NCBI GenBank assembly: GCA_022794035.1
Contig: JAAWDX010000012.1
Coordinates: forward strand, 1 to 64,000
Length of the DNA: 64,000 nucleotides
Direction of reading: 5' to 3'
Source of the DNA: Lachnospiraceae bacterium
Lineage (GTDB): Bacteria > Bacillota > Clostridia > Lachnospirales > Bianqueaceae
This document shows positions 14,760 to 54,931 of this stretch, piece after piece. Made by a program: the position numbers and the translations under genes. Position 1 is the first letter of the stretch, and each line of letters opens with the position of its first letter. The notes beneath the pieces were generated by a model, which saw nothing but the letters and a program-made list of their open reading frames with translations, had not been told where the DNA came from and made no database searches.

Positions 14760-15000
14760 GACTTTTTTATTGATTTGATTTGCTCTGCTGGGCTTACGCC
14801 AGTTTATTGATTTTTTTCATTTTGGCGGAAATTTTTCCACTACCCCGATGCTTTTCCACCATGTCTAGCTGAGCTTCTTCCACCAAACAATTAGTGCCAT
14901 CGCTGCCTTAACGGATAATTTTCCACTATCATTTGATTTTACGCCAAAGTCAGTGGAAATTTTTCAGCTAATTTTAATTTTTCTGCCACACACAGCTGAA
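14760..15000. other. AT-rich intergenic stretch with repeated TTTCCAC words
   Basis: No gene is visible between the feo promoter and the queA leader. The stretch contains TTTCCAC or TTCCAC at 14834-14840, 14853-14859, 14878-14883 and 14920-14926, and the inverse GTGGAAA at 14953-14959. Two related AT-rich words (GGAAATTTTTCC and TGGAAATTTTTCAGC) and CGCCA/TGGCG pairs also occur. I cannot assign a role. Confidence 0.3.
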
Positions 15001-15004
15001 CTTA

Positions 15005-15013
15005 TGATACAAT
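15005..15013 (+). promoter_or_regulatory. Extended -10 promoter at the start of the structured element
   Basis: TGATACAAT (TG-n-TACAAT) with no good -35. Transcription would begin almost exactly at the element at 15014. The surrounding 23 nt (AGCTGAACTTATGATACAAT and on) match 20 of 23 positions of a sequence upstream of the DUF4358 gene near 54.03 kb. Confidence 0.5.
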
Positions 15014-15082
15014 AAAGGCGGCAAGGTAGTTTTGAGAATTCAAGCCTCTGAGCCGCCTTCAAAGTTTGCCTTTGGCAAACTT
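15014..15082 (+). repeat. Structured repeat element, copy A (upstream of queA)
   Basis: Stem-loop 2: AAGGCGGC (15015-15022) pairs with GCCGCCTT (15052-15059) across a 29-nt loop containing ATTCAAGCCTCTGA. It is followed by stem-loop 1, the perfect hairpin AAGTTTGCC-TTT-GGCAAACTT (15062-15082). The 29-nt loop has the same length as copy C at 54.1 kb and matches it at 20 of 29 positions, and the core matches the tandem array at 50.7-51.0 kb. It could be a leader of queA, a small RNA, or a mobile intergenic repeat. Confidence 0.7.
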
Positions 15083-15094
15083 GTGATATCGCCA

Positions 15095-15103
15095 TGATAC
15101 AAT
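15095..15103 (+). promoter_or_regulatory. Extended -10 promoter of queA
   Basis: TGATACAAT again (TACAAT 15098-15103), without a recognisable -35, about 70 nt before the queA start. The GC-rich inverted repeat CGGGA...TCCCG follows in the leader. Confidence 0.5.
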
Positions 15104-15172: not shown

Positions 15173-16231
15173 ATGAAAACCAGCGATTTTTATTTTGATC
15201 TGCCTGAAGAACTCATTGCTCAGGTTCCTCTGCCAAACCGCACAGATTCACGGCTTTTGGTTTTAGATAAAGAGACCGGTGCGATTACGCACAGTCATTT
15301 TCATCAGCTGGATCAATTTTTACGCCCCGGCGATCGTCTCGTATTAAACGATACGAAGGTTTTACCCGCCCGGCTCATTGGGCGCCGCATAGATACGGCA
15401 GCTCAGGTGGAGATTCTTCTGCTTAAACGGCTCAGTGCTGATGAAATTCATGCACAGCAATTACCTGATGGCTGCATTTGGGAAGCGCTGGCCGGCCCGG
15501 GCAAACGGGCCCGCCTTGGTCATCAGCTGACCTTTGGCGATGGCCGTTTGAAGGCTGAAGTTGTTCGGGTTCTTCCCGATGGGAACCGTTTGGTTCAGTT
15601 CAAATTTGAGGGCATTTTTGAGGAAATATTAGATGAACTCGGTCAAATGCCGCTTCCTCCTTATATCCACGAAAAATTAGAAGATCGGGACCGGTATCAG
15701 ACTGTCTATGCCCGTGAAGAAGGCTCTGCTGCTGCTCCTACGGCCGGTCTCCACTTTACTAAGGAATTATTGGCTTCCCTGCAAGAACATGGAATCGATA
15801 TTTCTTTTGTTACGCTTCATGTTGGCTTAGGTACATTTCGCCCTGTAAAAGCGGATCAGATTGAAGATCACGTAATGCACAGAGAGATTTATCATATTGA
15901 TGAGGCGACTGCTCAGGCGATCAATGAAACGAAACGTAAAGGAGGTCGCATTATTGCCGTTGGTACAACCTCTTGCCGTACTCTCGAATCGGCTGCTGTC
16001 TCTCCCGGTGTGATTCAAAGCGGCAGCTCTGAAACTGGAATTTTTATCTATCCCGGATATCAATTTAAAATTTTAGATGCTTTGATCACCAATTTTCATC
16101 TTCCGGAATCTACGCTGATCATGCTGGTCAGCGCTCTTGCCGGACGTGAGCACACATTAAATGCATATCAAAAGGCTGTACAGGAAAAATATCGCTTTTT
16201 CAGCTTTGGCGATGCTATGTTCATCCAGTAG
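15173..16231 (+). CDS. queA: S-adenosylmethionine:tRNA ribosyltransferase-isomerase
   Basis: 352 aa. It transfers and rearranges the ribosyl group of SAM onto preQ1-modified tRNA to make epoxyqueuosine. Seen: the opening [15 protein letters not shown], the conserved [12 protein letters not shown] (the segment before it, YAREEG, is also typical), [13 protein letters not shown], and the ending SFGDAMFI. Length is normal for QueA. The start follows ACGGAGACATACCTCT. The gene is alone on the plus strand between a structured leader and a bidirectional terminator. Its pathway partner tgt lies 7.4 kb away on the minus strand. Confidence 0.96.
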
Positions 16232-50662: not shown

Positions 50663-50689
50663 ATCCTCCTCTTTCGCTTAGAATATAAA

Positions 50690-51008
50690 GTCTCAAAGCA
50701 ACTCATAGCGCGGTTCAAACACTTGAATATAGAGAAATTTAAGACCGCACATCGTCATACCTTTTACACCGGAGTTGCGTCGCAACTCGCAGCGCGGTTC
50801 AAATACTTGAATATAGAGAGATTTAAGACCGCACCTCATCATACCTTTTATGTCAGAGTTGCGTAGCAACTCAAAACGTAGCTCTTTTTTTTGAATACAC
50901 AGTAATAGCTAGCTACGTCCGTCATACCTTTTACATCAGAGTTGCGTAGCAACTCGCAGCGCGGTTCAAACACTTGAATATAGAGAAATTTAAGACCGCG
51001 CTTTTAGC
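50690..51008 (-). repeat. Tandem structured repeat array, about 84-bp period, four units (copy B)
   Basis: Four units on the minus strand. The hairpin GAGTTGCG(T/A)..CGCAACTC starts (plus) at 50772, 50856 and 50939, spacing 84 and 83 nt; a partial fourth ends at 50704. Between hairpins lies a stem-loop GCGCGGT...ACCGCGC with ATATTCAAGTGTTTGAACCGC (minus). Unit 3 (50856-50938) has the different stem ACGTAGCT/AGCTACGT (50876-50883 with 50911-50918), keeping pairing. The last unit runs into the DHHW coding end. No coding potential within. Relatives at 15014-15082 and 54049-54122. Confidence 0.85.
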
Positions 51009-52114
51009 CAAACAAAGCTCTGATCTGTACACAAAAAGTCCATATTATACAAGCAGAGAATCTGCTTGATCTGCTCCTGCTCGATCAGCTCTGACAGGTT
51101 TTCCCGATAATACCGCAAATCGATCATGATGATTTCCTGATATACTTCTGCTAAAAATGGCACCATGCTATTCGCATAGGAATCTTTAAGCAGCAACAGG
51201 GTCTCCTGCCGCTCGGCCGCTTCATTATGCACTCTGGTAAGTCCATAATTGCCTCCCATAAAGGCTGTATATTGATCCTTCTTTTCAAACATCTCCGGCA
51301 TCAGCACGGTAGCGCTTTTTCCCTCTGCGGTCCATACTGCATGCAGGCCTGGGGAATCCATCACCCAAAACTGCTCCTGCGGATATCCAAACACCGGCGC
51401 CTGCGAATAAAGGCTTCCTTTAAACTCTTCGCTCATGCACCGAATTTCTCTCGTCATGATATCTGCTACGCTCTCTCCTCTGCTCTCCATCAGCGCCTGA
51501 TAGGCATAGGCAGCTCCGCGCATTGTCCAGTGATGATCTGATTTAAAATAAATAGCTTCTTCTTTATGCCCGACAAGCTCATCATAAGCACATACAAAAT
51601 AAACCGATTCTGGCAGTGCTTCACGAATGATTTCAAGTGCCTGCTGTGGTGAATATGTCAGCGCGTATGCAGGCAGCTCATCCTGATAAATCCAGGAAGC
51701 AGTAGGTGCCAGCAGAAATTCAGTATGAACGGTCTCCGGCAGCTTCTTTGTCCACGCTGCCAGTGTCTGCATATTGGCTTCCAGCTGCTCAAATGAAATA
51801 TTTTTCACCTCAATCAGCCGATGATCGCCGGCAAAATATATATCGCCAATCTGCTCCCGCCCGTTCAGGCGTTCTATTGAATTTTTAAGCTGAATCCATT
51901 GATCTCGAAATGGAATATGATCTGCCATATAGGTTTCCAGATCTTCCATATAGGCTCCGCTGCGAATGTTCTGCCAGTTTGCCTGCGGCATCGCGGCCAA
52001 ATAGCGGTTTTCCATAGCAGAAAATCCTTTGCCGGCCGTCCACATTTGCCCTAGAATCAATACCAGGATGAGCCCCCCAATGATGAATACGGTACATTTT
52101 TTATTTGTTCTCAT
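50990..52114 (-). CDS. DHHW-family protein (AlgJ/AlgX-like)
   Basis: 374 aa. N-terminal membrane anchor (about 8-28), then an SGNH-like extracytoplasmic domain with SDHHWTMRGAAYAY (about residue 192) as the catalytic-type Asp-His. AlgJ/AlgX-type proteins accept acetyl groups from the MBOAT partner and acetylate a polysaccharide. The last residues (KARS) are encoded by the arm of the repeat array, whose TAA gives the stop. Start at ATG 52114, 2 nt after the AlgI stop; same operon. Confidence 0.9.
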   Translation of the reverse strand: MRTNKKCTVFIIGGLILVLILGQMWTAGKGFSAMENRYLAAMPQANWQNIRSGAYMEDLETYMADHIPFRDQWIQLKNSIERLNGREQIGDIYFAGDHRLIEVKNISFEQLEANMQTLAAWTKKLPETVHTEFLLAPTASWIYQDELPAYALTYSPQQALEIIREALPESVYFVCAYDELVGHKEEAIYFKSDHHWTMRGAAYAYQALMESRGESVADIMTREIRCMSEEFKGSLYSQAPVFGYPQEQFWVMDSPGLHAVWTAEGKSATVLMPEMFEKKDQYTAFMGGNYGLTRVHNEAAERQETLLLLKDSYANSMVPFLAEVYQEIIMIDLRYYRENLSELIEQEQIKQILCLYNMDFLCTDQSFVWLKARS

Positions 52115-54025: not shown

Positions 54026-54034
54026 ATTTTACCA
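54026..54034 (-). promoter_or_regulatory. Extended -10 promoter module of the DUF4358-AlgI-DHHW genes
   Basis: Minus strand: TGGTAAAAT, within AGCTGAACTTGTGGTAAAAT, which matches the module at 14994-15016 at 20 of 23 positions. The -35 is not clear. Confidence 0.45.
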
Positions 54035-54048
54035 CAAGTTCAGCTCTG

Positions 54049-54122
54049 GAGTTTGGCGCTTTGCGCCAAACTCAAAAGGCGGCTCAGGAGCTTGATTAGC
54101 CTAAATTGCCTTGCCGCCTTTT
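54049..54122 (-). repeat. Structured repeat element, copy C
   Basis: Minus strand: AAGGCGGC (54113-54120) pairs with GCCGCCTT (54076-54083) across a 29-nt loop containing AATCAAGCTCCTGA, then the perfect 11-bp hairpin GAGTTTGGCGC/GCGCCAAACTC (54049-54073). The 5' arm supplies the last codons (KGGKAI) and TAG stop of the upstream SGNH gene. Same loop length as copy A. Confidence 0.75.
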
Positions 54123-54931
54123 ACCGTATGCTGCAATAAATAATCCAACCATAGCTCACAATATTCTGCTGTTAAATGGATTCCATCCGTCGAAGCATCA
54201 GGCTGCAGGGCTCCGTTTTCCCCAATCAGCGCATCGCCCGGGCTCAGATAGACACAATTCTCTTCCTCGGCCATTGCCTTGATCATCTGATTGCGTTCTG
54301 CAATTCTTGCATTGGTAAAGACATCACCCTCTGCATCCTTTTCTGCTGAAACCGGAATAATGCCCTGTACATAGATCACGATTCCCGGCTGCAATTCCTT
54401 GATCTTACGAACCAGCTTGCGATAGTCTTCAATAAAAATTTCTGGATAGGGCCAGCCAATTTCATTGATGCCAAACATCAGATATGCCTTTCCATATGTC
54501 TTTTCTCCCAGCACATCATATGCCGTTCCCATCTGGCCTGTTGCCAGCTCATAGAGCGCATCCTCACCCATTTTATCGATGCTCATCCCTCTCTCCGCCA
54601 AAAAACGGGGCGTCGTCAGACCCGTTCCCAGCTGCAAGCCCTGTGTGCGGGAATCTCCGATAAAGACCGCGTCATCCAAATATGAAAGCTCCGCCTTTTC
54701 GGCTGGCGCCGAGCTTTCCATAGAGGCAGAATCTGAAACATCGGGTATACTCACTTCGCCTGCCGGATCCTGTGATTCATTTCCCGGCGCGTCTTCCTGC
54801 GAAGATTCTGTTGTGAGCGATCGGGAACTCTCCTCTTCATATGTATCCGTTCCCAAAACGCCTGATTTAATCACCAGTACAATAAAAATGCATAATAAAA
54901 CAACCATTATACCCAGCTCTGCCCGCTTCAT
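54101..54931 (-). CDS. SGNH/GDSL-type hydrolase, membrane anchored
   Basis: 276 aa. N-terminal membrane helix (about 5-25), a Ser/Glu-rich linker (about 35-80), then the hydrolase: block I VFIGDSRT (nucleophile Ser), block III FGINE, block V DGIHLT. A likely surface esterase or acetyl transferase partner. The stop codon and the C-terminal KGGKAI are formed by the repeat. Promoter at 54984-55012. First gene of the operon-like group SGNH-DUF4358-AlgI-DHHW, though a promoter module between them allows separate expression. Confidence 0.9.
   Translation of the reverse strand: MKRAELGIMVVLLCIFIVLVIKSGVLGTDTYEEESSRSLTTESSQEDAPGNESQDPAGEVSIPDVSDSASMESSAPAEKAELSYLDDAVFIGDSRTQGLQLGTGLTTPRFLAERGMSIDKMGEDALYELATGQMGTAYDVLGEKTYGKAYLMFGINEIGWPYPEIFIEDYRKLVRKIKELQPGIVIYVQGIIPVSAEKDAEGDVFTNARIAERNQMIKAMAEEENCVYLSPGDALIGENGALQPDASTDGIHLTAEYCELWLDYLLQHTVKGGKAI

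Follow-up and report, generated by a model that had tools for sequence, protein, structure and literature searches.

In the window, that is, the whole stretch of 64,000 nucleotides analysed here, from a genome designated G000, two minus-strand genes, coding for a DHHW protein (PF14286, E 1e-28) and for a UDPGP protein (PF01704, E 9e-41), are separated by an array of four units of 83-84 bp, which reads in the direction of both genes (Table 1). TRF places the array at positions 50697-50999 (3.6 copies with a period of 84; its score of 357 is well above that of any other array of the window), and a repeat search recovers four 80-nt copies with spacings of 84, 84 and 83 nt, in agreement with the regular four-unit period of 84 and 83 nt described in a sequence-only reading of this DNA. 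On the minus strand each unit is formed by a large hairpin A, with arms AGCGCGGT/ACCGCGCT and a 29-nt loop containing TATTCAAG, by a small hairpin B (GAGTTGCTACGCAACTC) and by a linker (TGAYGTAAAAGGTATGACG) with a decayed -10-like site. The perfect palindrome that the reading had ascribed to every unit (GAGTTGCGTMGCAACTC) is intact in three of the four but broken in the UDPGP-proximal unit, whereas the larger stem-loop is present in all four; in unit 3 its stem is ACGTAGC..GCTACGT, still complementary, instead of the GCGCGGT..ACCGCGC found elsewhere. The copies are at 71, 100, 64 and 94% of the reference. The high identity noted earlier is thus not uniform along the array, and recent duplication can be upheld for units 1, 2 and 4 but not for unit 3. 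In unit 3, at 64%, both sides of the stem have changed, which was the first sign that pairing, rather than sequence, is being kept. In single-strand folding three of the four units beat most shuffled sequences (DNA z -2.2 to -3.6).

Table 1. Repeat units and their parts in the window.
Feature	Position	Strand	Evidence or score
Single type-1 unit upstream of queA-like gene (15173-16228)	14999-15099	+	79.6 bits
Four type-1 units between DHHW 3' end and UDPGP start	50687-51018	-	TRF, repeat search, cmsearch R2 (50920-51018, 72.5 bits; 50837-50919, 54.5; 50753-50836, 62.2; 50687-50751, 36.7)
Hairpin A, DHHW-proximal unit, arms AGCGCGGT/ACCGCGCT	50958-51002	-	sequence, ORF
Hairpin B, DHHW-proximal unit, GAGTTGCTACGCAACTC	50939-50955	-	sequence, folds
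Decayed -10 site GGTATGACG, counterpart of family TGGTATAATA	50920-50928	-	sequence, cmsearch
Hairpin A, unit 3, compensatory stem GACGTAGC/GCTACGTT	50875-50919	-	sequence, folds
Hairpin B, unit 3	50856-50872	-	sequence
Decayed -10 site GGTATGATG	50837-50845	-	sequence
Hairpin A, unit 2, GGTGCGGT/ACCGCGCT	50791-50835	-	sequence, folds
Hairpin B, unit 2, GAGTTGCGACGCAACTC, perfect	50772-50788	-	sequence
Decayed -10 site GGTATGACG	50753-50761	-	sequence
Hairpin A, UDPGP-proximal unit	50707-50751	-	sequence, folds
Broken hairpin B, UDPGP-proximal unit	50690-50704	-	sequence
Single type-1 unit between GDSL/SGNH gene and DUF4358 gene	54030-54132	-	63.4 bits

The minus-strand TATGAT/TATGAC motifs pointed out before are present in the linkers, at the position of the TGGTATAATA of the family described below, and the view that the units are neither a gene nor a terminator nor a known operator holds. 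The DHHW gene ends within the array, its last codons and stop (..LKARS*) being provided by the 5' arm of the DHHW-proximal hairpin A. In G001, of the same genus, no array separates the DHHW orthologue from UDPGP, and the stop codon of the one overlaps the start codon of the other; the junction has TTTGTTTGGTTAAA in G001, and TTTGTTTGGCTAAA followed by the first unit in the window genome. The window array lies between two co-directional genes and is a decayed outlier; with its decayed -10 sites and one broken hairpin B, it has the appearance of an old insertion. Of the two single units in the window, the one upstream of the queA-like gene is preceded by a -10 site (TGATACAAT) and has TGATACAATA on both sides, and the other forms the last codons and the stop (..VKGGKAI*) of the GDSL/SGNH gene. 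An AT-rich repeat (..TTCAGCTAATTTTAATTTTTCYGCCACACACAGCTGAACTTATGATAYAATA) lies upstream of several G000 units (window positions 14880-15010; L210, L215, L221) and may be a further promoter-bearing module.

With the array or one unit as query, blastn detected nothing beyond this locus, either in the same genome or in 57 relatives, and Rfam searches of the region, the whole window and 20 dispersed copies gave no match to the units at the gathering score. However, covariance searches, which had been proposed along with these two checks, uncovered a diverged, dispersed family, as the sequence-only reading had suspected; blastn alone would have argued wrongly against dispersal. A model built from the four array units only (R1) already matched 30 places of the G000 genome at E<1, many of them in adjacent pairs upstream of genes. 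A second model (R2, 26 copies; counts taken at E<=0.1) found 60 copies in G000, 13 in G001, 51 and 53 in G004 and G008, two sister species of another genus, 31 in G017 and 6 in G018, with 0-3 in the remaining members of the bacterial family and none across one whole genus. A third (R3, 112 sequences), run on 392 genomes of the order, detected the units in 9 of the 19 members of the bacterial family and weakly in two of the 373 other genomes. In one of these two, a single copy (L396:1380-1720) has a promoter, a hairpin and AGTTTGCCGC..GCGGAACT, a leader similar to those of the bacterial family, ahead of an ORF that to us resembles UDP-galactopyranose mutase. Phage and plasmid collections gave no match to the units, and no description of this repeat family was found in the open-licence literature searched. 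Matches to the bare palindrome GAGTTGCGTAGCAACTC (at least 120 in 85,000 genomes) were rejected as non-homologous, their contexts being unrelated or those of other repeat families, with different flanks; the palindrome GAGTTGCTACGCAACTC also lies within other, apparently unrelated repeat families of Gastranaerophilales, Paceibacterota and Acidimicrobiia MAGs (L062-L141). The four repeats of the window form a local, decayed array within a family of two-hairpin DNA units that had not been named before. These small interspersed repeats are specific to one bacterial family, with up to about 60 copies per genome.

The consensus unit is formed by TGRTATAATA, hairpin A, with 8-bp arms and a loop of 29-30 nt, hairpin B (GAGTTTG..CAAACTC) and a short tail (CGATATCGTCA), followed by TGRTATAATA again (TGGTATAATA). 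Units are 83-105 bp long and occur in arrays of one to four tandem units plus a fraction. In the alignment of 112 sequences all 21 modelled pairs show changes on both sides, with 324 double-change cells against 114 in shuffles; pairing cells amount to 80.1%, as compared with 68.0% in shuffles and 34% when the register is slid by one column. Fitting the alignment to a model favours the structure, yet this bias is much too small to account for the contrast. A model-free scan for the arms gave 118 units, in which 97.6% of arm pairs are Watson-Crick, with four G:U and 11 A:C. RNA helices usually tolerate G:U; since G:U is here no commoner than A:C, the arms of hairpin A may be constrained, or corrected, as DNA.

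The first units of arrays are in a fixed register with a -10 element. In 65 of 95 cases this element ends exactly one base ahead of the hairpin A 5' arm; it reads TATAAT in 53 and TACAAT in 10 of the 95. A TTG is found upstream with a spacer of 17 nt in 30 of the 95, of 18 nt in 10 and of 16 nt in four; the 22 later units within tandem arrays had none at these spacers. First copies, as judged by these motifs, sit on predicted sigma-A promoters. The nearest downstream ORF is in the sense direction for 86 of 98 arrays, most of the exceptions being antisense frames within the repeats, and the start codon lies at a median of 80 nt past the unit (94 loci with a sense ORF; only sense ORFs were sought). 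The downstream genes are without a common function. Few target genes are shared across genera (trxA in G000 and G004, a radical-SAM gene in G001 and G004), and within the genus of the window G000 and G001 share one further gene. Past the last full unit the 5' arm recurs in 18 of 28 cases in G008 (2.4 expected by chance) and in 10 of 23 in G004 (2.0 by chance), but in G000 it does so at a rate near chance (4 of 26, against 2.5). In computed folds of RNAs beginning at the predicted start, the 3' arm is paired with this downstream arm around hairpin B, at energies between -37 and -44 kcal/mol and z values between -2.2 and -4.1.

Sites free of units in G001 include, besides the DHHW/UDPGP junction, trxA (TATGCTAGAATAA, with nothing after it) and the queA promoter. 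At a fixed offset past hairpin B a second -10-like site shares the variant base of the first (at position 5, 47 matches against 32 expected; none of 2000 permutations was as high). In G004 and G008 the right-hand site is usually continued by a partial unit, so that the flanking copies may come from tandem duplication rather than from target duplication. In samples of 23 and 28 loci, G004 and G008 have 11 orthologous loci in common, with conserved -35 and -10 elements; by a rough reckoning fewer than one would be expected for unrelated sets, as against about 14 if some 45 loci were all shared. The upstream flanks of the 11 shared promoters have an identity of 0.62, against a background of 0.30. 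The arms of orthologous G004 and G008 units, however, are no closer (0.68) than those of unrelated copies from the two genomes (0.70), whereas within each genome the arms agree (0.86 and 0.90); most are GGCGTGGC/GCCACGCC in G004 and GGCGCAGC/GCTGCGCC in G008, with a few intermediates. The unit arms have thus undergone concerted evolution, whether by conversion, by re-insertion or through a co-evolving factor.

A second unit family shares the -10 borders (TGRTATAATA-CCCACACAGGACGACCG-CAAGAATCCCGAAGGGATTCTTG-hairpin(AAGTT..AACTT)-ATGGTATAATA); it forms mosaic arrays with type-1 units, in L441-L450 (G001) and in L362, L371 and others (G000), and occurs at about 15 more places in G001. In two IMG/VR sequences (L451:12500-13160 and L452:11500-11830) the same prophage end (an endolysin gene, then TTGTAAATCGGGCTAAACTATGGTATAATA) is joined to two different host loci, one of them the gene at G000:C9:91095. 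Each joint coincides precisely with the -10 edge of a type-1 unit, and the phage end supplies a -35-like TTGTAA 17 nt upstream. In L451 (7661-10846), moreover, a tail-like protein of 641 aa is followed immediately by an ORF of 368 aa that resembles a reverse transcriptase (YMDD); by its layout the pair is a candidate diversity-generating retroelement.

Our favoured explanation, to which we give an even chance, is that the units are transcribed 5' leaders, acting in cis, that also spread; their function as leaders is what we infer. At the usual sigma-A spacing, the -10 of the first copy would direct a transcription start within the 5' arm of hairpin A, and the RNA would carry the 3' arm, hairpin B and, at many loci, the 5' arm of the next copy, which would pair with the 3' arm to give a strong stem closed around hairpin B. 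The likely effect would be on the stability of the mRNA 5' end, or on the amount of read-through or start-up transcription into the gene, and each added copy would bring another -10. Spread would probably occur by gain of a unit beside TGRTATAATA and by local tandem duplication. Against a leader, the downstream genes lack a common function, the recurrence of the 5' arm past the last unit is near chance in G000, most of the 5' arm of the first copy is upstream of the expected start, which leaves hairpin A partly outside the RNA, and near-pure Watson-Crick arms would be unusual if the helix were maintained as RNA alone. The last trait is shared with a DNA operator, in which the arms would be half-sites of a trans-acting regulator, placed across the start site at about -5..+3 and +33..+41, and the switch of the whole set of arms between G004 and G008 would follow a change of specificity. 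The symmetry without G:U enrichment and the switch itself fit an operator; however, several unrelated arm sequences coexist in G000 and in G017, the arm centres are 37-38 bp apart, and a DNA-binding protein has no need of the locus-specific covarying stems inside hairpin B, and we regard this explanation as quite unlikely. We consider unlikely a broader scenario for the whole bacterial family, in which the leaders of dozens of unrelated genes would contain one -10-coupled two-hairpin module, a trans-acting factor would read this module, the specificity of this factor would have changed between the sister species with all its target sites following by concerted evolution, and mobile units and temperate phages would land at the same -10 edge. 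A single-ligand riboswitch, T-box or attenuator family would likewise be structured, covarying and located in leaders; it is extremely improbable, given the absence of an Rfam match at the gathering score, the unrelated downstream genes and the finding that in G000, G004 and G008 hairpin B is not consistently followed by a U-tract. An intrinsic terminator was rejected, since in these three genomes neither hairpin A nor hairpin B has a GC stem with a U-tract directly after it; in G017 copies T-runs begin only about 5 nt past the stem.

Alternatively, the units could be selfish, non-autonomous mobile repeats of the MITE or BOX kind, whose machinery prefers TGRTATAATA, so that their place and orientation at promoters would reflect target choice and not a host function; this we hold to be somewhat unlikely. 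Copy numbers from 0 to 60 within one bacterial family, sites gained in G000 relative to G001, units inserted in the 3' ends of ORFs, mosaic arrays with the second unit family and the junctions of two prophage ends with host DNA at that same -10 edge all speak for a mobile repeat, as does the target-duplication-like -10 site with a common variant base on both sides. For the last, however, tandem duplication explains the right-hand site equally well, given the partial second unit in G004 and G008. Moreover, most sampled loci appear common to G004 and G008 despite flanks at 62%, constraint is suggested by the strict covariation and by the identity of arms across a genome, no terminal inverted repeats were seen by eye and no encoded or linked transposase was found. 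REP-type elements moved by a RAYT (REP-associated tyrosine transposase) are very improbable: Y1_Tnp proteins of 258-305 aa are encoded in G000, G001, G004, G017 and G018, but the hits examined in G001, G017 and G018 have no unit within 1.5 kb, the one in G004 is about 1.6 kb away from a unit, G008, with its 53 copies, has no hit, and unit-free genomes also have the gene. Linkage to a RAYT was rejected, as no such gene flanked by units was found among the hits examined. Integron attC sites were also rejected: the arms GGCGTGGC, GGCGCAGC, AAGGCGGC and others lack the GTTRRRY/RYYYAAC core boxes, and there are no ORF cassettes between units.

Among known systems, REP/BIME elements with RAYT are likewise dispersed, palindromic intergenic units found in mosaic arrays; the present units differ by their promoter register, their larger structured loop and the lack of a transposase linkage in our searches. 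The put sites of phage HK022 are two adjacent RNA stem-loops just after a promoter that act in antitermination, making RNA polymerase terminator-resistant; the resemblance is one of layout, and the units are present in dozens of chromosomal copies rather than two. The closest known kind are BOX/MITE-like small interspersed repeats, BOX above all. The units are short, non-coding and dispersed in intergenic copies, and modular, with one to four units, partial last units and mosaics with type-2 units. BOX elements of Streptococcus pneumoniae, which are over-represented between convergent genes and were judged parasitic, are also small, modular, intergenic and lineage-restricted, with a variable number of tandem modules and predicted RNA stem-loops, and reach about 100 copies per genome (PMC3049150); G000 has 60 covariance matches. 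However, BOX has terminal inverted repeats and is not described as tied to a promoter -10 (PMC3049150), and by description the units are set apart by their sigma-A register, their orientation facing the next gene and their covarying, genome-specific arms. For TnGBS, ISLre2 and ISKra4 insertion site and orientation are set by the sigma-A promoter, as the position and orientation of the units follow it, but these elements land 15-17 bp upstream of the -35 and have a DDE transposase and inverted repeats (PMC3942029), whereas the units lie directly downstream of the -10 and encode nothing. In our reading, promoter anchoring and one-way orientation are new for BOX/MITE-like repeats.

The unit family is invisible to ordinary blastn and Rfam searches, and its -10-anchored repeats are one way in which promoters can be duplicated. 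The genome-wide switch of arms at conserved promoters of G004 and G008 is a natural experiment, on concerted evolution or on a hidden trans-acting factor. Dozens of unrelated genes appear to share one kind of structured leader in this bacterial family and, if the units do act as leaders, one recurring structured promoter module would control or shape the expression of a large set of genes.
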